A stretch of 64,000 nt of DNA from Streptantibioticus cattleyicolor NRRL 8057 = DSM 46488 (lineage in GTDB: Bacteria; Actinomycetota; Actinomycetes; Streptomycetales; Streptomycetaceae): assembly GCF_000240165.1 (NCBI RefSeq), contig NC_017586.1, positions 1,240,001 to 1,304,000 of the forward strand, written 5' to 3'. Numbering within the stretch: position 1 is the first letter of the stretch; each line of letters opens with the position of its first letter. This document shows positions 4,441 through 13,503 of this stretch, one piece after another. The notes beneath the pieces were generated by a model, which saw nothing but the letters and a program-made list of their open reading frames with translations, searched no databases and was not told where the DNA came from. A program made the position numbers and the translations under genes.

Positions 4441-5883
4441 TCAGCGGGACGGGTGGGGGGAGTCGTCCTCGCCGATGTGGTGGACGCGGACCATGTTGGT
4501 GGTGCCGGGCATGCCGGGCGGGGAGCCGGCGGTGATGACGACGGTGTCACCGCGCTGGCAGCGGCCGATGCGCAGCAGTTGCTCGTCGACCTGCTCGACC
4601 ATCTCGTCGGTGGTCTGCACCATCGGCCCCAGGAAGGTCTCCACGCCCCAGCTGAGGCACAGTTGGGAGCGGGTGGCCGGTTCCGGGGTGAAGGCGAGGA
4701 CGGGGATGGGCGAGCGGTAGCGGGACAGCCGGCGGGCGGTGTCGCCGCTCTGGGTGAAGGCGACGAGGAAGTCGGCGCCGAGGAAGTCGCCCATCTCGGC
4801 GGCGGCCCGGGCCACCGCGCCGCCCTGGGTCCGCGGCTTGGTGCGCTCGCTGAGCGGCGGCAGCCCGGCGGCGAGCATGTCCTCCTCCGCGGCGGCCACG
4901 ATCCGGCTCATCGTCTTCACCGTCTCGATGGGGTACTTGCCGACGCTGGTCTCGCCGGAGAGCATCACCGCGTCGGCGCCGTCCATCACGGCGTTGGCCA
5001 CGTCGGACGCCTCGGCGCGGGTGGGGCGGGAGGCGTCGATCATCGAGTCGAGCATCTGGGTGGCGACGATGGCCGGCTTGGCGTTGCGGCGGGCGAGGTC
5101 GACCGCCCGCTTCTGCACCATCGGCACGTCCTCCAGCGGCATCTCCACCCCGAGGTCGCCGCGGGCGACCATGATGCCGTCGAAGGCGTCGACGATCTCC
5201 TCCAGGCGCTCGACGGCCTGCGGCTTCTCGATCTTGGCGATGACCGGGAGCCGGCGCCTCTCCTCGTCCATGATCCGGTGGACGTCCTCGATGTCGCGGC
5301 CGGCGCGGACGAAGGAGAGCGCGATGATGTCGGCGCCGGTGCGCAGGGCCCAGCGCAGGTCTTCGACGTCCTTGTCGGACAGGGCGGGGACGCTCACCGC
5401 GACACCCGGCAGGTTGAGCCCCTTGTGGTCGGAGACGAGGCCGCCCTCGATGACCAGGGTGTGCACCCGGGAGCCCTCGACCCCGGTGACCTCCAGGGTG
5501 ACGCGGCCGTCGTCCACCAGGATCCGTTCGCCGCGGCTGACGTCACCGGCGAGGCCGCGGTAGGTGGTGCCGCACATGTGGCGGTCGCCGGGTACCTCGT
5601 CCGTGGTAATGGTGAACTGGTCGCCGCGTTCAAGGAGTACGGGTCCTTCGGCGAAGGTGGCGAGCCGGATCTTCGGGCCTTGAAGGTCGGCGAGGACCCC
5701 GACGCTGCGGCCGGACTCGTCCGACGCCTTGCGCACGCGTCGGTAACGGTCCTCATGCTCCGCGTAGCTGCCGTGGCTCAGGTTGAACCGTGCCACGTCC
5801 ATACCAGCGTCGACCAGCGCTTTGATCTGGTCGTAGGAATCGGTGGCAGGGCCCAGGGTGCAGACGATCTTCGCTCGGCGCAT
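4441..5883 (-). CDS. pyk: Pyruvate kinase
   Basis: A 480-residue enzyme of normal length that converts phosphoenolpyruvate and ADP to pyruvate and ATP, the last step of glycolysis. The N-terminus MRRAKIVCTLGPAT and ARFNLSHG are diagnostic, as are the catalytic/metal region VIAKIEKPQAVERL, MVARGDLGVEMP and VATQMLDSMI. The C-terminal allosteric domain (about 350-475) is complete. Transcribed alone; its upstream region carries two palindromes (5899-5914 and 5930-5947). Streptomycetes often have two pyruvate kinases; position beside the pdtaR-like gene matches the copy called pyk2 in S. coelicolor, as far as I recall. Confidence 0.97.
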   Translation of the reverse strand: MRRAKIVCTLGPATDSYDQIKALVDAGMDVARFNLSHGSYAEHEDRYRRVRKASDESGRSVGVLADLQGPKIRLATFAEGPVLLERGDQFTITTDEVPGDRHMCGTTYRGLAGDVSRGERILVDDGRVTLEVTGVEGSRVHTLVIEGGLVSDHKGLNLPGVAVSVPALSDKDVEDLRWALRTGADIIALSFVRAGRDIEDVHRIMDEERRRLPVIAKIEKPQAVERLEEIVDAFDGIMVARGDLGVEMPLEDVPMVQKRAVDLARRNAKPAIVATQMLDSMIDASRPTRAEASDVANAVMDGADAVMLSGETSVGKYPIETVKTMSRIVAAAEEDMLAAGLPPLSERTKPRTQGGAVARAAAEMGDFLGADFLVAFTQSGDTARRLSRYRSPIPVLAFTPEPATRSQLCLSWGVETFLGPMVQTTDEMVEQVDEQLLRIGRCQRGDTVVITAGSPPGMPGTTNMVRVHHIGEDDSPHPSR

Positions 5884-6894: not shown

Positions 6895-6950
6895 ACATGG
6901 AGATCGGTGACGCCTCGTCAGCCGACAGGCGCGCACTTGGGGAGCAGTGG

Positions 6951-8786
6951 ATGTCGATCGACCGCAGGACCTTTCTGAACCGCTCGGCGGCGACCGGCGC
7001 GGTCGTCGCGCTCGGCGGGGCGGCCGGCGCGGTGGGCCCGGCCGGGACCGCGCAGGCGGAGCCGGGGACGCCCGCCGGGGCCGCGCACCGCCACCCGCGC
7101 CGCGCCTCCTTCCGTGTCCTGGGCACCACCGACGTGCACGGCCACGTCTTCAACTGGGACTACTTCACCGACAAGGAGTACGACGACGCCGCCCACAACG
7201 ACGTCGGCCTGGCCAAGATCGCCACGCTGGTCGAGCAGGCCCGCGCCGAGAAGGGGCGCCACCGCACCCTGCTGATCGACGCCGGCGACATCATCCAGGG
7301 CACCCAGCTGTCGTACTACTACGCCCGGGTCGACCCGATCACCGGCGGCAACGGCAAGCGCCCGCCGAAGCACCCGATGGCGCTGGCCATGAACCACATG
7401 CGGTACGACGCGGCGGCGCTGGGCAACCACGAGTTCAACTACGGCATACCGGTGCTGCGCGCTTTCCAGGAGCAGTGCGACTTCCCGCTGCTGGCGGCGA
7501 ACGCGCTCGACGCCACCACGCTCAAGCCGGCCTTCCCGCCGTACGTGGTCAAGCGGATCAAGGTGCCGGGCGGCCCGGACGTGAAGGTGGGCATCCTCGG
7601 GCTGACCAACCCGGGCATCGCCATCTGGGACAAGAACAACGTGCAGGGGAAGCTGACCTTCCCGGGCCTGGTGGAGCAGGCCAAGGTGTACGTGCCCAAG
7701 CTGCGCGCGCTCGGCTGCGACGTGGTGGTCTGCACCGACCACTCGGGGCTGGACGGCGGCACCTCCTACGGTGACGCGCTGCCGTACCCGGAGAACGCCT
7801 CCTCGCTGGTGGCCGAGCAGGTGCCGGGGATCGACGCGATCCTGGTGGGCCACACCCACAAGGAGGTCGCCTCGCGCACCGTGGTGAACGCCGAAACCGG
7901 CAAGCCGGTGGTGCTCTCCGAGCCGCTGATGTGGGGCATGCGGCTGAGCGTCTTCGACTTCGAGCTGGAACTGCGGCACGGCCGCTGGCAGGTCCTCTCG
8001 GTCACCGCCGAGGTGCGCAACGCCAACACCGTTGCGGAGGACCCGCACGTGGCCCGCCTGGTGCGCAAGGAGCACCAGGCGGTGGTGGCCTACGTCAACC
8101 AGGTCATCGGCACCTGCAAGGAGGCGATGTCGGCGGCCGAGGCGCCGTACCGGGACACCCCGGTCATCGACTTCATCAACACCGTGCAGGCGGCGACCGT
8201 CAAGGCGGCGCTGGCCGGCACCGCGTACCGCGACCTGCCGGTGCTCTCCCAGGCGGCGTGCTTCTCGCGGACCGCCGCCATCCCGGCCGGCCAGGTCTCG
8301 CTGCGGGACGTGGCCGGGCTGTACGTGTACGAGAACACCCTGGACGCGCGGGTGCTGACCGGGGCGCAGCTCAAGGACTATCTGGAGTGGTCGGCCCGGT
8401 ACTACGTGCAGACCCCGGCCGGCACCCCGGTCGACCTGACGAAGATCACCAACGCGGACAACACCCCGGACTACAACTACGACGTGGTGTCCGGGCTCGG
8501 CTACGACATCGACATCGCCAAGCCGGCCGGGTCGCGGATCACCAATCTGACGTTCCAGGGCAAGCCGCTGGACCCGGCCGCCTCGTTCGTGCTGGCGGTC
8601 AACAACTACCGGGCCAACGGCGGCGGCAACTTCCCGCACGTGGCCGCGGCGCGTTCCATCTGGTCGTCGTCCGAGGAGATCCGGAACACGATCATCGCCT
8701 GGGTGAAGGAGAACAAGGTGATCGACCCGGCCGCCTTCGCCTCGGTGGACTGGCGGCTCACCCGCGACGGAGTGCCGGTGCTGTGA
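6951..8786 (+). CDS. Exported UshA/CpdB-type metallophosphatase (5'-nucleotidase family)
   Basis: A 611-residue enzyme with a twin-arginine signal (MSIDRRTFLNRSAATGA, hydrophobic core, cleavage near AQA). The metallophosphoesterase domain shows TDVHGHVFNW, LLIDAGDIIQG, GNHEFNYG and the metal-binding histidines of VGHTHKEV; the C-terminal 5'-nucleotidase domain starts near residue 380 and contains VLAVNNYRANGGGNF. It should release phosphate from nucleotides or 2',3'-cyclic nucleotides outside the cell. ATG 6951 has GGGGAG eight bases upstream; the in-frame ATG at 6897 would bury the Tat signal. Its last 29 bases overlap the convergent monooxygenase gene. Confidence 0.92.
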   Translation: MSIDRRTFLNRSAATGAVVALGGAAGAVGPAGTAQAEPGTPAGAAHRHPRRASFRVLGTTDVHGHVFNWDYFTDKEYDDAAHNDVGLAKIATLVEQARAEKGRHRTLLIDAGDIIQGTQLSYYYARVDPITGGNGKRPPKHPMALAMNHMRYDAAALGNHEFNYGIPVLRAFQEQCDFPLLAANALDATTLKPAFPPYVVKRIKVPGGPDVKVGILGLTNPGIAIWDKNNVQGKLTFPGLVEQAKVYVPKLRALGCDVVVCTDHSGLDGGTSYGDALPYPENASSLVAEQVPGIDAILVGHTHKEVASRTVVNAETGKPVVLSEPLMWGMRLSVFDFELELRHGRWQVLSVTAEVRNANTVAEDPHVARLVRKEHQAVVAYVNQVIGTCKEAMSAAEAPYRDTPVIDFINTVQAATVKAALAGTAYRDLPVLSQAACFSRTAAIPAGQVSLRDVAGLYVYENTLDARVLTGAQLKDYLEWSARYYVQTPAGTPVDLTKITNADNTPDYNYDVVSGLGYDIDIAKPAGSRITNLTFQGKPLDPAASFVLAVNNYRANGGGNFPHVAAARSIWSSSEEIRNTIIAWVKENKVIDPAAFASVDWRLTRDGVPVL

Positions 8787-10290
8787 ACCGGCCGCTGCCG
8801 CCCGGCCGCGGGGTGGCCGGGCGGCGGTCGTCGGCGCCGTCGAGACCGAAGGTGGTGAAGGCGGTGCGCCGGGGCAGCGGGTAGACCTCCTTGCCCAGCA
8901 GGGAGTTGAGGATCACGGCCGAGCGCCAGGCGCCGAGGCCGAGGTCGGGGGTGCCGACGCCGTGGGTGTGGCGTTCGGCGTTCTGCACGTGGACGGCGCC
9001 GCGTACCGCGGGGTCGAGGACGAGCCGGTGGTGGGCGTCGACCCGGGGGCGTCCGGCGGAGTCCCGGCGCAGATACGGGTCGAGGGGGGCCAGCAGGGCG
9101 TCGAGGGGGCGTTCCCGGTAGCCGGTGGCGAGGACGACGGCGTCGGTGACGAGCCGGGACTGGGTGCCCTGGCGCAGGTGGTCGAGGTGGAGTTCGACCC
9201 GGTTGGCGCCGAGCCGTCCGGCCGTGCGCACGGTGACGCCGGGGGTGAGGGTGACGTCGGGCCAGCGGACGCCGTCCTGGTCACCGCTGATTGTCAGTGC
9301 CCGCTGGTACAACTCGTGGTGGATGGCGTCGATCGTCTCGTGGTCGATGCCCTTGTACAGCTGCCACTGGCGCGGCAGCAGGTCGTCACGGGCGGGTTCC
9401 GGGAGGCGGTGGAAGTAGCGGGTGTAGTCGGGGGTGAACTGTTCGAGGCCGAGCTTGCCGTATTCCATCGGCGCGAACGATTCGGTGCGGGCGATCCAGG
9501 TGAGCCCCTCGCGGCCGGGCGGGCGGCGGCGGAGCAGGTCGAGGAAGACCTCGGCGCCCGACTGTCCGGCGCCGACGACGGTGATGTGTCCGGCGGCGGT
9601 GAGCTGATCGCGGTGGGTGAGGTAGTCGGCGGAGTGGAGGACGGGTACGCCGTCGGCCTCGACGAGCGGTCGCAGATGGCGGGGTACGTAGGGGGCGGTG
9701 CCGATGCCGATGACGAGGTTGCGGGCGTGGGTGCGGCCGAGCGCCTCGGCCTGGCCGTCCTCGTCGAGCTGGGTGAAGTCGGCCTCGAACAGGCCGCGTT
9801 CCTGGTCCCAGCGGATGGCGTCGATCTGGTGGCCGAAGTGGCAGTTGGGCAGTGAGCCGGCCACCCAGCGGCAGTAGGCGTCGTACTCGGTGCGCTGGAT
9901 GTGGAAGCGTTCGGCCAGGTAGAAGGGGAAGAGCCGGTCGCGGCTCTTGAGGTAGGACAGGAACGACCAGGGGCTCGCCGGTTCCACCAGGGTGACCAGG
10001 TCGGCGAGGAAGGGGACCTGGATGGTGGCGCCTTCGATGAGGAGTCCGGGGTGCCAGTGGAAGCCGGGCCGCTGGTCGTAGAAGGCGGTGGTGAAGGCGG
10101 GGACGCCGTCGGCGAGGGCGGCCAGCGAGAGGTTGAACGGCCCGACGCCGACGCCGAGCAGGTCGAGCGGGCGGGCCGGGGTGCCGGACTGCGGGGCGTG
10201 GCCGGTGCCGGTGTCGAGGCCGGTAGCGGGGTCGGTGGCGGGCCGGGAGCCGGCGTGCTGCCGGTCGGCGGGGGCGCTGCCGGTGCTCAT
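8758..10290 (-). CDS. Lysine/diamine N-hydroxylating flavin monooxygenase (DesB/IucD-like)
   Basis: A 510-residue class B N-hydroxylating monooxygenase that uses FAD, NADPH and O2 to hydroxylate the side-chain amine of lysine, ornithine or a diamine. Residues 1-40 are a low-complexity extension. The FAD motif GVGVGPFN is at 46-53, the NADPH motif VVGAGQSGAEVF lies near 255 and the ATGY motif (VVLATGYRERP) near the C-terminus. ATG 10290 overlaps the decarboxylase stop as ATGA, so the two are translationally coupled. Together they resemble desA-desB of desferrioxamine synthesis, but no acyltransferase (DesC) or NIS synthetase (DesD) follows. The 3' end overlaps the convergent phosphatase gene. 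Confidence 0.9.
   Translation of the reverse strand: MSTGSAPADRQHAGSRPATDPATGLDTGTGHAPQSGTPARPLDLLGVGVGPFNLSLAALADGVPAFTTAFYDQRPGFHWHPGLLIEGATIQVPFLADLVTLVEPASPWSFLSYLKSRDRLFPFYLAERFHIQRTEYDAYCRWVAGSLPNCHFGHQIDAIRWDQERGLFEADFTQLDEDGQAEALGRTHARNLVIGIGTAPYVPRHLRPLVEADGVPVLHSADYLTHRDQLTAAGHITVVGAGQSGAEVFLDLLRRRPPGREGLTWIARTESFAPMEYGKLGLEQFTPDYTRYFHRLPEPARDDLLPRQWQLYKGIDHETIDAIHHELYQRALTISGDQDGVRWPDVTLTPGVTVRTAGRLGANRVELHLDHLRQGTQSRLVTDAVVLATGYRERPLDALLAPLDPYLRRDSAGRPRVDAHHRLVLDPAVRGAVHVQNAERHTHGVGTPDLGLGAWRSAVILNSLLGKEVYPLPRRTAFTTFGLDGADDRRPATPRPGGSGRFTAPALRRG
8798..8824. terminator. 10-bp hairpin after the metallophosphatase
   Basis: Perfect arms CCGCCCGGCC (8798-8807) and GGCCGGGCGG (8815-8824) with a 7-base loop, starting 11 bases after the phosphatase stop. 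It falls inside the 3' coding end of the convergent monooxygenase gene, a compact shared arrangement. Confidence 0.6.
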
Positions 10291-11717
10291 CGGGGGGTGG
10301 TTCCTTCCGGGATGGCGGCGGTGACGACGTCGAGCAGCGAGGCGAGACGGTCGGTGGGGGTGTCCGGGTTGAGCAGGGTGGCCTTGAGCCACAGGCGTCC
10401 GCCGGCGCGGGCACGGCCGAGCACGGCGCTGCCGGAGGTGATCAGGGCCCGGCGGATCGCGGCGACCTGGTCGTCGGTGGCGGGTTCGGGGCGGAAGAGG
10501 ACGGTGCTGATGACGGGGCGGCCGTAGAGGGTGAACCTCGGGTGGCCCTCGATCAGGTCGGCGAAGCGCCGGGCCTGGTCGCAGACGTTGTCGACGAGGG
10601 CGCCGAGGCCGTCGCGGCCGAGGGCGCGCAGGGTGACGACGATCTTGAGGATGTCGGGGCGGCGGCTGGTGTGCAGCGAGCGGCCGAGCAGGTCGGGCAG
10701 GCCGGCCTCGGTGTCGTCGGTGGCGTTGAGGTAGTCGGTGTGGTGGCCGAGGGGGCGCAGCGCGGTGCTGTCGGGGACGGCGAGTAGTCCGGCGGCGATC
10801 GGCTGCCAGCCGAGTTTGTGCAGGTCGAGGCTGACGGACGCGGCGGACTGGAGGCCGTCGAGGAGGGCGTGGCGGTGGCGGCTGAAGAGCAGCGGACCGC
10901 CGTAGGCGGCGTCGACGTGGAGGTCGGCGCCGTGGGCGGTGGTGACCCGGGCGATGTCGGGCAGCGGGTCGATGGCGCCGGAGTCGGTGGTGCCGGCGGT
11001 GGCGGTGACGAGGACGGGGCCGTGGAGTCCGGCGAGCGCGGCGTCGAGGCGTCCGGGGTCCATGGTGCCGTCGGGGGTGGGCACGGTGACGGGTTCGGGG
11101 AGGCCGAGCAGCCAGGTGGCGCGGTGGACGCTGTGGTGGGCGTTGGCGCCGCAGACCACCTGGACGCCGGGGCCGCCGGCCGCGCGGGCGCGTTCCCGGG
11201 CGAGGAGCAGGGCGAGTTGGTTGGATTCGGTGCCGCCGCTGGTGACCAGGGCGTCGGGGGCGGGCAGGTCGGGGTAGACCACGGCGGCGAGGGCGGCGGT
11301 GGCCTCGGCCTCCAGGGCGGAGGCGGCGGGGGCCTGGTCCCAGGAGTCCATGGAGGGGTTGAGCACGGTGGCGGCGAGGTCGGCGGCGACCGCGACGGCC
11401 AGCGGCGGACAGTGCAGATGGGCGGCGCAGAAGGGCTCGGCGGGGTCGGCGGCGCCGTGGGCGACCGCCTGGACCAGGGTGGTGAGCGCTTCGGCGGCTC
11501 CGGTGCCGGTGTCCGGCAGTACGGGGGTGACGGCGGCCCGCAGCCGTACCGCCACCGGGCCGGGGCCGCCGGCCGGCAGCGGCCCGCCGCGCGCGGCGGC
11601 TCCGGCCACGAGCGCGTCCAGCACTCGGTCGAGCAACGGCCGCAGCGCTCCGGGCCCGGCGGGGCCCCCTGCGAGTGCGACCGCGCCGTCGGAGGCGCGG
11701 TCGTCCGGCGTCGGCAT
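10287..11717 (-). CDS. PLP-dependent group II decarboxylase (DesA / diaminobutyrate decarboxylase-like)
   Basis: A 476-residue pyridoxal-phosphate decarboxylase of the glutamate/DABA/lysine decarboxylase family. Visible marks are NPSMDSWDQAPAAS near residue 120, TSGGTESNQLALL, the PLP-contacting DLHVDAAYGG and the Schiff-base lysine in SLDLHKLGWQP. The SMDSWDQ element is typical of L-2,4-diaminobutyrate decarboxylases and siderophore DesA enzymes. ATG 11717 has AGGAGG eleven bases upstream. It is first in a two-gene unit with the monooxygenase, so the likely product is an N-hydroxylated diamine such as N-hydroxycadaverine, -putrescine or -diaminopropane. The 167-base upstream region lacks the TTAGGTTAGG-type iron box expected for a DmdR-controlled siderophore gene. 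Confidence 0.88.
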   Translation of the reverse strand: MPTPDDRASDGAVALAGGPAGPGALRPLLDRVLDALVAGAAARGGPLPAGGPGPVAVRLRAAVTPVLPDTGTGAAEALTTLVQAVAHGAADPAEPFCAAHLHCPPLAVAVAADLAATVLNPSMDSWDQAPAASALEAEATAALAAVVYPDLPAPDALVTSGGTESNQLALLLARERARAAGGPGVQVVCGANAHHSVHRATWLLGLPEPVTVPTPDGTMDPGRLDAALAGLHGPVLVTATAGTTDSGAIDPLPDIARVTTAHGADLHVDAAYGGPLLFSRHRHALLDGLQSAASVSLDLHKLGWQPIAAGLLAVPDSTALRPLGHHTDYLNATDDTEAGLPDLLGRSLHTSRRPDILKIVVTLRALGRDGLGALVDNVCDQARRFADLIEGHPRFTLYGRPVISTVLFRPEPATDDQVAAIRRALITSGSAVLGRARAGGRLWLKATLLNPDTPTDRLASLLDVVTAAIPEGTTPR

Positions 11718-11884
11718 GGTGCGTGCCCCTCCTGCGTTCGGTTGCGCGGGTCCGCGCTCCGCAGTCTTCCGGGCGCGGCGGGCGTTCACCCGGAGAGCAC
11801 AACGACCGCGACCCGAAAGTGGTACGGAGGTGGGCCGTGGGCGTGACGTGGGGTGGGGTTGCGTCGTTAGCAGTGGGGGTGTGT

Positions 11885-12778
11885 TCAGGGCGTCCGGCCG
11901 GACGGGCCGATGGTCGGCGGGTGGTCCGGGTCGGGGACGCGGCGGCTCCACCCGCCGGGGACGGTGGCGTGCTGCTGCTCGCGGAAACGGATGGGGGCGA
12001 GGCCGACGCGACGGGTGAACAGGCGGCTGAAGTAGGCGGGGTCGGCGTAGCCGACGCGGCGGGCGACGGCGGCGACCGGCAGATCGGTGGCGGCGAGAAG
12101 TTCCTTGGCGCGGCCGAGGCGGATGGCCAGGAGGTAGTCCTTGGGGCTGCATCCGGCGCCCCGTCGGACGGCGGCGCGCAGTTCGGCCAGGGTCATGCCG
12201 TGCCGGGCCGCGTGGGCGGCGACCGGCAGCGGGAGGAAGGCGTCGCGGGCGAGCGCGTCGAGCACCGGGTCGCCGTCGCACCCGGTGTCGGCGCGGGCGC
12301 GGCGCAGCGCGACCAGGAGTTCGTGGACGGCGGCGGAGGTCTCCACCTCCAGCAACGGGTTGCCGAGGCGGGCGGCGCGGGCGATCCGCGCGATCATGTC
12401 CCGGGCCCCCGCGGTCTCCCGCAACGGCACGACGGGACGCTCCGGCTCGATGTACCCCAACTCCGTGTAGGCCGCGGTGGCCGGGCCGGTGAAGTCGACG
12501 AACCCCTCGTCCCAACCGCCTTCCGGCGCCGGGGCGTAGCTGTGGCGCACGCCGGGGACGAGCCACAGCAACGCCGGTGCGGTCACCGTCTGCACGGGGC
12601 CGCCGCCGGCCCGGAACCATCCGCGGCCGGCGGTGATGACCACCGCGACGTGGTGGTCGACCACGCGCGGGCCGACGGCCGGCAGCGCCCCGTGCTGCAA
12701 TCCGACGCCGAGGCAGACCAGACCGAGGCGGTGGTGTGCGGGCCCCGGGCGGAAGTAACGCATCCACGTGTGATACAT
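11885..12778 (-). CDS. AraC-family transcriptional regulator
   Basis: A 297-residue regulator with an N-terminal cupin-like ligand domain (about 10-160; VVDHHVAVVITAGRGWFRAG) and a C-terminal double helix-turn-helix ending in the AraC signature (VAAVARRVGYADPAYFSRLF, then VGLAPIRFRE). It lies upstream of the decarboxylase-monooxygenase pair on the same strand and probably controls it; AlcR/YbtA-type AraC regulators sense siderophores, but nothing here proves that ligand. ATG 12778 and ATG 12763 are both possible and neither has a good ribosome-binding site. A C17 tract begins 46 bases upstream. Confidence 0.85.
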   Translation of the reverse strand: MYHTWMRYFRPGPAHHRLGLVCLGVGLQHGALPAVGPRVVDHHVAVVITAGRGWFRAGGGPVQTVTAPALLWLVPGVRHSYAPAPEGGWDEGFVDFTGPATAAYTELGYIEPERPVVPLRETAGARDMIARIARAARLGNPLLEVETSAAVHELLVALRRARADTGCDGDPVLDALARDAFLPLPVAAHAARHGMTLAELRAAVRRGAGCSPKDYLLAIRLGRAKELLAATDLPVAAVARRVGYADPAYFSRLFTRRVGLAPIRFREQQHATVPGGWSRRVPDPDHPPTIGPSGRTP

Positions 12779-12823
12779 CACGCCCGATCTTGTCGCGCCC
12801 CACGCCATCCCGCCAGAGGGGCT

Positions 12824-12840
12824 CCCCCCCCCCCCCCCCC
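12824..12840. repeat. C17 homopolymer tract
   Basis: Seventeen consecutive C residues, by far the longest homopolymer in the window, starting 46 bases upstream of the AraC start. Such a tract can slip in replication; it could also be a place where assembly length is unreliable. Confidence 0.9.
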
Positions 12841-13048
12841 ACGGCCCCGCTCGCGCTCGCGGCCAACCATCACTCCCCGGCCGGCACCCGCGACCCGCCC
12901 ACCCACGCCGTGGTGGCCGGTTCGCCCGGTTCGGGGTTCCGGGGTGGCCCCCGTTCGCCCCTGCCCGGTGGGTGGTTGGGGTGGGTTTTGGTTTGGTTCG
13001 GCACCGAGTGGCTTCGCCTACTGCCGGTACGGGGTCGGTGGCGCGCCG

Positions 13049-13324
13049 GGGGTGACTCCTCGCCCCAGGTTTCGCTCCAAGGTTGCGCCCGCCCCGCTGG
13101 GTCGCTGCGGGGACACCCCCGACACACCCCCTTGCGCCGTCGTGCGGGTGCCTCTCTTCGCGGGGGAGGGTGAGATAGGAGGTTGGGGTCACCCCGATCT
13201 CCTTCTCACCCACCCCGTGCCGCAGCGCGGAACACAACAGAACGGGGGCGTGCAGGGGTGTCCCCGCAGCGACCCAACAGCCGGAGCCAAGCCTTGGCGG
13301 ATACGCGGAGCGAGGAGTCACCCC
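13049..13324. repeat. 276-bp imperfect inverted repeat element
   Basis: Arms 13049-13119 and 13255-13324 are inverted copies. The outer 15 bases (GGGGTGACTCCTCGC) and the inner 22 bases (13098-13119 against 13255-13276) match exactly, while the 34-base middle has diverged. The 135-base centre holds a further inverted pair, GGGTGAGA (13168-13175) and TCTCACCC (13204-13211). It could fold as a long cruciform or RNA. No transposase or target duplication is visible. Confidence 0.8.
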
Positions 13325-13433
13325 GGAGGGCCCCCGGAAACCCAGGAAGACAGTGCGCACCCCGCACTGTACGAACACAGCCACGGGTGGGCGGGGGGAA
13401 ACATCCGTGACGCCAGCCACGACGAAAGGGGAA

Positions 13434-13503
13434 CGGGCGCACCCCGAGGATGTCGGGGCGGGGGGGGAACGCCCTGTGCGGGGGGTCGGGCGCACCCCGA
13501 GGA
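13434..13503. repeat. 17-bp direct repeat pair
   Basis: The sequence CGGGCGCACCCCGAGGA occurs exactly at 13434-13450 and again at 13487-13503, 53 bases apart. The second copy runs up to the GH101 stop codon (13505-13507). The intervening DNA is G-rich. Confidence 0.75.

Follow-up and report, generated by a model that had tools for sequence, protein, structure and literature searches.

The known pathway closest to that of the genes considered here is the one for rhizobactin 1021, encoded on pSymA of S. meliloti (L301), where the genes for a diaminobutyrate transaminase (DAT), a PLP-dependent decarboxylase (D), a first IucA/IucC synthetase (NISa), a GNAT acyltransferase (GNAT), a flavin-dependent N-hydroxylase (M) and a second synthetase (NISc) are collinear in this order; the letters of rhbABCDEF are those that we take to belong to the individual genes of this region. 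The same enzymes are encoded contiguously and in the same order in Halobacterium (L302). According to excerpts of two further sources, dat-bdb-iucABDC of Haloferax volcanii is a contiguous operon read as one six-gene transcript, deletion of iucABDC leaves the organism without siderophore and schizokinen has been proposed as the product (PMC7407949), while a review describes schizokinen as an intermediate of rhizobactin 1021 made via 1,3-diaminopropane (PMC6562677). As for streptomycetes, published accounts call SCO5799-SCO5801 of S. coelicolor a putative siderophore locus (PMC3224560, PMC7324645, PMC6414726), bring up a "dispersed biosynthetic pathway" with regard to different genes (PMC3224560) and report a tentative LC-MS identification of schizokinen in two Streptomyces (PMC13136089). 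The open-access texts available in part yielded neither a decarboxylase/hydroxylase partner or a product for SCO5799-5801, nor a link between this locus and a decarboxylase/hydroxylase pair near pyruvate kinase.

Unlike the contiguous systems of S. meliloti, Halobacterium and Haloferax volcanii, the set found in Streptantibioticus cattleyicolor is split. Of the six genes, the 64,000-nucleotide stretch of DNA analysed here (the window) carries D and M (Table 1), which occupy places two and five of the rhizobactin 1021 order. As judged from the sequence comparisons presented below, D and M most likely constitute the RhbB/RhbE half of a split NIS pathway of the rhizobactin 1021/schizokinen type.

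Table 1. Features of the D-M locus and its synteny anchors (positions in the window)
Feature	Position	Strand	Basis
D: PLP-dependent diamino-acid decarboxylase, RhbB-like	10287..11717	-	Pfam, tree, Lys motif
M: flavin-dependent diamine N-hydroxylase, RhbE-like	8758..10290	-	Pfam, tree
ATGA overlap, D stop / M start	10287..10290	-	ORF coordinates
Conserved element TACCACTTTCGGGTNNNGNTCGTTG, promoter region of D	11800..11824	-	upstream-region comparison
AraC-family regulator	11885..12778	-	Pfam, synteny in relatives
Convergent 2',3'-cyclic-nucleotide phosphodiesterase/nucleotidase; synteny anchor	6897..8786	+	domains, synteny
Pyruvate kinase; synteny anchor	4441..5883	-	NCBIfam, synteny

The first-pass annotation of this DNA had described an overlapping PLP decarboxylase and N-hydroxylase preceded at 167 bases by an AraC gene, and both coordinates and domains bear this out: D (476 aa) matches Pyridoxal_deC with 133 bits, M (510 aa) matches Lys_Orn_oxgnase with 363 bits and the AraC protein (297 aa) matches AraC_binding and HTH_18. 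D is a predicted L-2,4-diaminobutyrate decarboxylase and M a predicted 1,3-diaminopropane N-hydroxylase, and the four bases shared by their genes suggest that the two are translationally coupled; the 3' end of M is in turn overlapped by 29 bases by the nucleotidase gene. The pairing is more than a chance arrangement, since M has orthologues that are ~65–79% identical among the best matches listed and dN/dS has a median of 0.24 over 483 pairs of M (0.07–0.93) and of 0.38 over 129 pairs of D (0.14–0.95), the pairs of either set not being independent of each other. As the first-pass annotation had also held, acyltransferase and NIS synthetase are missing locally, none being detected by a domain scan among the window neighbours scanned. 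An Rfam scan of 8600–13500 returned six matches, all of them to microRNA families below their gathering scores. Two further features were seen nearby. An inverted repeat at 13049–13324, between the AraC and GH101 genes, is large but imperfect, with one arm of 43 bases and another of 25, and its single strand folds much more stably than shuffled versions do (z -7.4). At 12824–12840, ~45 bases ahead of where AraC starts, the - strand has 17 consecutive G, which could be a site of slippage or an artefact of the assembly.

The remaining four genes lie 3.67 Mb away on the same chromosome (C2:4,916,725-4,923,699; L174), between hflX/protease and dinG-lexA, so that the six-gene set, divided between 8758–11717 of the window and 4.917–4.924 Mb of C2, is not one operon. 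DAT (L174:4725-6101) is a diaminobutyrate transaminase by model NF005393 (678.2 bits, cut-off 671) and is followed in order by NISa, GNAT (PF13523, 158 bits) and NISc, the two IucA/IucC synthetases scoring 213.8 and 238.7 bits with PF04183; tblastn found neither D nor M at this locus. Listed as DAT, D, NISa, GNAT, M and NISc, the identities amount to 57/41/38/36/39/42% with S. meliloti and 51/39/40/40/44/49% with Halobacterium. The locus thus displays the rhizobactin 1021 gene order minus exactly D and M, which supports the earlier suggestion that the pair may supply a precursor to a distant pathway and speaks against regarding D and M as true orphans. The open frame of NISa in this strain runs ~290 codons further upstream (L174:6334-7203) as degenerate Pro/Gly/Ala-rich repeats, probably because the start is misplaced or because the protein is extended specifically in this strain.

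Relatives possess the undivided form of this arrangement. In four genera (L219, L220, L221, L222) all six genes are intact and in the same order between hflX and dinG-lexA, with extra genes ahead of dinG in L219 and L221. The home-made codon scorer used to call genes at these loci overlooked some real ones (e.g., DAT in L219), and for this reason presence and absence at hflX-dinG were rechecked by tblastn. Among 41 dinG-lexA loci, a sample that leaves out g16 and g17, both having window-type M, 14 contain M (genera g2, g3, g4, g5, g10, g14 and g15), D being inside seven of these, and 27 are without both D and M; DAT is absent from five of the latter and NISa with GNAT from one (L241). Window-type M is present elsewhere (E <= 1e-180) in 24 of the 27 genomes without in-place D/M; the other three are G231, with a partial 69% match, and two g11 genomes in which a DAT-D-M trio is located elsewhere (L227, L229). 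Individual cases add to this picture: G119 (g14) has M in place plus a window-type match, DAT and D are missing as well from the six g14 loci, and in G343 (g9), which is without window-type M, an M gene adjoins GNAT-NISa (L225). Members of the family have thus dismantled the operon by no fewer than two routes, one separating D-M and the other, in g11, the DAT-D-M trio. With respect to the in-place genes, window M is 48–59% and NISc 62–70% identical and, between the two genus groups, D and M diverge more than NISa, NISc and DAT; because of this greater divergence a simple, recent relocation of in-place D/M is not favored, and either replacement of the in-place pair or an old relocation is the probable origin of the split. 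Elsewhere, in f18, L157, L160, L161 and L163 are complete DAT-D-NISa-M-NISc operons with a glutamine-synthetase-like gene, an unrecognised type of NIS cluster; in L157, L161 and L163 a PLP decarboxylase of another kind lies close by as well.

The distribution of window-type M was followed in the largest genus (g9, probably Streptomyces; n = 250). Window-type M is defined here by a best E <= 1e-180, a label that by itself gives no locus position, and the co-occurrence counts rest on M, placement at pyruvate kinase having been checked in the loci read individually; the genome counts were read by eye from tables and the large searches scored the top three candidates per genome. M and NISa occur together in 224 genomes, M only in five, NISa only in 16 and neither in five (Fisher p = 5e-4, a value that overstates the association since three of the five genomes having neither are drafts of 810–910 contigs). 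Counted as having NISa are 11 genomes with a weak score, in which one open frame extends over several alignments, as well as G124, taken as present on its weak score without a split-alignment check. In 12 of the 16 NISa-only genomes a different M matches with E values between 1e-137 and 1e-146, and its context was read in four (L164, L165, L166, L225); G211 and G231 have partial window-type matches, and in G219 and G342, drafts of 410 and 850 contigs, the best M is no better than 1e-98. Second window-type copies of M, not at pyruvate kinase, exist in G023 and G151 (L178, L179). Some g9 genomes have a second cluster of the order NIS-D-NIS-GNAT-M containing a different M, 46–47% identical (L171, L172).

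NISc is absent from ~131 of the 250 g9 genomes, 119 of which retain window-type M, and in the ten NISc-less loci that were read NISa and GNAT are at hflX-dinG in all ten and DAT in nine, once in two pieces. SCO5799-SCO5801 is presumably, by synteny, an hflX-dinG locus of this NISc-less kind, and the SCO numbers of the hflX, dinG, lexA and pyruvate kinase genes of S. coelicolor are likewise assumed. Loss of NISc with retention of M fits a reduced pathway in which D and M would serve synthesis of a different hydroxamate, for instance mono-citryl or homo-oligomeric, while in genomes that kept NISc they may serve the full pathway, and it weakens the case for schizokinen as the product in the genomes concerned. 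This possibility deserves consideration, but it appears unlikely as an account of the pair studied here, the genome of which retains NISc.

A second alternative is that D and M make a free N-hydroxydiamine for a use unrelated to siderophores, such as N–N bond chemistry, signalling or defence. In its favor are the five g9 genomes with M and no NISa (one of which, G135, retains NISc) and a D promoter that is not DmdR-like, yet the surroundings of the pair offer no candidate partner. The families called among 81 pyruvate kinase loci (80 named loci and the window, the stretches ending at contig ends and the genes being called with home-made means) are M (81), pyruvate kinase (78), SIMPL (74), D (72), pepN (64), chorismate mutase (54) and the AraC family of the window (50), the usual order being AraC-chorismate mutase-pepN-D-M-nucleotidase-SIMPL-pyruvate kinase. 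Neither these neighbours and the others of this locus, nor the window neighbours scanned, nor the 12 recurrent neighbour families read by eye include a partner suited to forming an N–N bond, and among them the N–N bond chemistry raised in the first-pass annotation finds no support. A non-siderophore role is quite improbable.

The same loci bear on the regulator. The pair had been placed "under" an AraC protein and an AraC gene does stand upstream of D in this strain, but the arrangement is not conserved: D was called in 71 further loci, and the AraC family directly precedes it in not one of them, its members usually sitting before chorismate mutase/pepN. Furthermore, in L084, L105 and L112 the AraC-chorismate mutase-pepN block has been turned around or lies at the opposite side of D-M, so that it moves as a unit of its own. 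By synteny, then, the AraC gene is probably a neighbour and not part of the D-M unit; AraC control as a conserved feature is not borne out, control in this one strain being still conceivable. Nor is the protein RhrA-like, a further difference from rhizobactin 1021, its score with the RhrA model being 20.8 bits against a cut-off of 500.

Promoter comparison is in line with the first-pass statement that the 167-base region has no iron box. With what we take to be the DmdR-type consensus, no iron box was seen upstream of D, where the best match is 10/19, nor at the DAT locus (9/19), as against 18/19 at the strain's own des operon; control of either locus by a regulator of another type is conceivable. 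A 26-base form of the element at 11800–11824 (three free positions) scores at least 21 in 27 of 66 upstream regions, the window included, a score that not one of 1320 letter shuffles reached, and at up to three mismatches the element has one site in the strain's own genome. A search for a motif common to the D-M and DAT promoters brought up some recurring CGTTG and GTAC letters, but as the D-M element has this single site no common motif is proposed, and the comparison gives no sign of co-regulation of the D-M and hflX-dinG loci. In the f18 cluster L154, unlike the DAT locus of this strain, an iron-box-like TTAGGTTAGGCTTCCCTGA is found upstream of the transaminase.

The relationship of the pair to desferrioxamine synthesis was examined in trees of 39 (D) and 42 (M) rows, with the S. 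meliloti enzyme (RhbB or RhbE) and its Halobacterium homologue among the rows of each. A branch with 100/100 support puts window D together with RhbB and the Halobacterium Bdb-type protein opposite the three Des rows and, likewise with 100/100 support, window M falls on the RhbE/IucD side opposite the three Des rows, the RhbE row being long-branched and of unsure exact position. The Des rows number only three; an unnamed cluster (L182) groups with them in both trees. Around the lysine that we assume to be catalytic D reads LDLHKLGWQP, as do most diaminopropane-type cluster rows, whereas the Des rows read VDFHKSFFQP. However, the solved diaminobutyrate-type decarboxylase 2qma is without the LGWQP signature and differs from D and the Des rows alike, so that the motif marks the clade and not the substrate. 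Among PDB entries D matches 2qma with 245 bits versus 194 bits for the desferrioxamine decarboxylase, while the matches of M (294, 292 and 289 bits) do not discriminate. The score with the NCBIfam RhbB model was rejected as proof of the substrate of D because the strain's own DesA outscores it (434.2 versus 297.5 bits), both being below the cut-off of 900.

The genome (8,095,515 bases in two contigs of 6,282,967 and 1,812,548) does contain a complete des operon, with decarboxylase, hydroxylase, acyltransferase and NIS synthetase, near 500–505 kb of contig C1 (1.81 Mb), its acyltransferase having been assigned by clustering with the GNAT of the hflX-dinG locus; acyltransferase and NIS synthetase genes, the desC/desD-like genes to be looked for according to the first-pass annotation, are thus present in this operon and at the hflX-dinG locus, and DesB and window M are the only two strong Lys_Orn_oxgnase proteins of the strain. 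The description of D and M as the first two enzymes of desferrioxamine-type synthesis holds at the level of the superfamilies, which desABCD shares for these steps, but not at that of the clades; desABCD is moreover contiguous, separately located on C1 and furnished with an iron box, while D-M have neither an adjacent desC/desD nor such a box. With its own full des set and D and M outside the Des rows, the genome does not correspond to the case in which the pair would be the sole DesA/DesB orthologues with desCD elsewhere. The notion that D and M duplicate the first two des steps and supply N-hydroxycadaverine to desferrioxamine synthesis, to which identities of 43% (M–DesB) and 39% (D–DesA) and the presence of the complete operon lend some appeal, is rejected by the trees and most improbable also in view of the missing iron box and of a distribution of M complementing that of in-place M at the NIS locus.

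In the preferred reading, that of a split rhizobactin 1021/schizokinen-type pathway, DAT of the hflX-dinG locus would make L-2,4-diaminobutyrate, which D would decarboxylate to 1,3-diaminopropane; M would then hydroxylate one amine of the latter, GNAT would acylate the hydroxylamine and the NIS synthetases would couple the acylated product to citrate. The most likely product of the D-M pair is N-hydroxy-1,3-diaminopropane destined for such a pathway. More speculatively, and at some distance from what can be considered probable, the dispersed set consisting of D-M and DAT-NISa-GNAT, with neither NISc nor a DmdR box, may across much of Streptomyces make an undescribed N-hydroxy-diaminopropane/citrate metabolite that would be near-universal in the genus and not iron-repressed through DmdR. 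D and M, at a second, fixed locus, represent candidates for the two missing steps of loci of the SCO5799-5801 type, which are widespread in Streptomyces and whose product thereby becomes directly testable. They also illustrate how a pathway broken up repeatedly among the members of a single bacterial family can be recovered incompletely by genome mining that relies on clusters.
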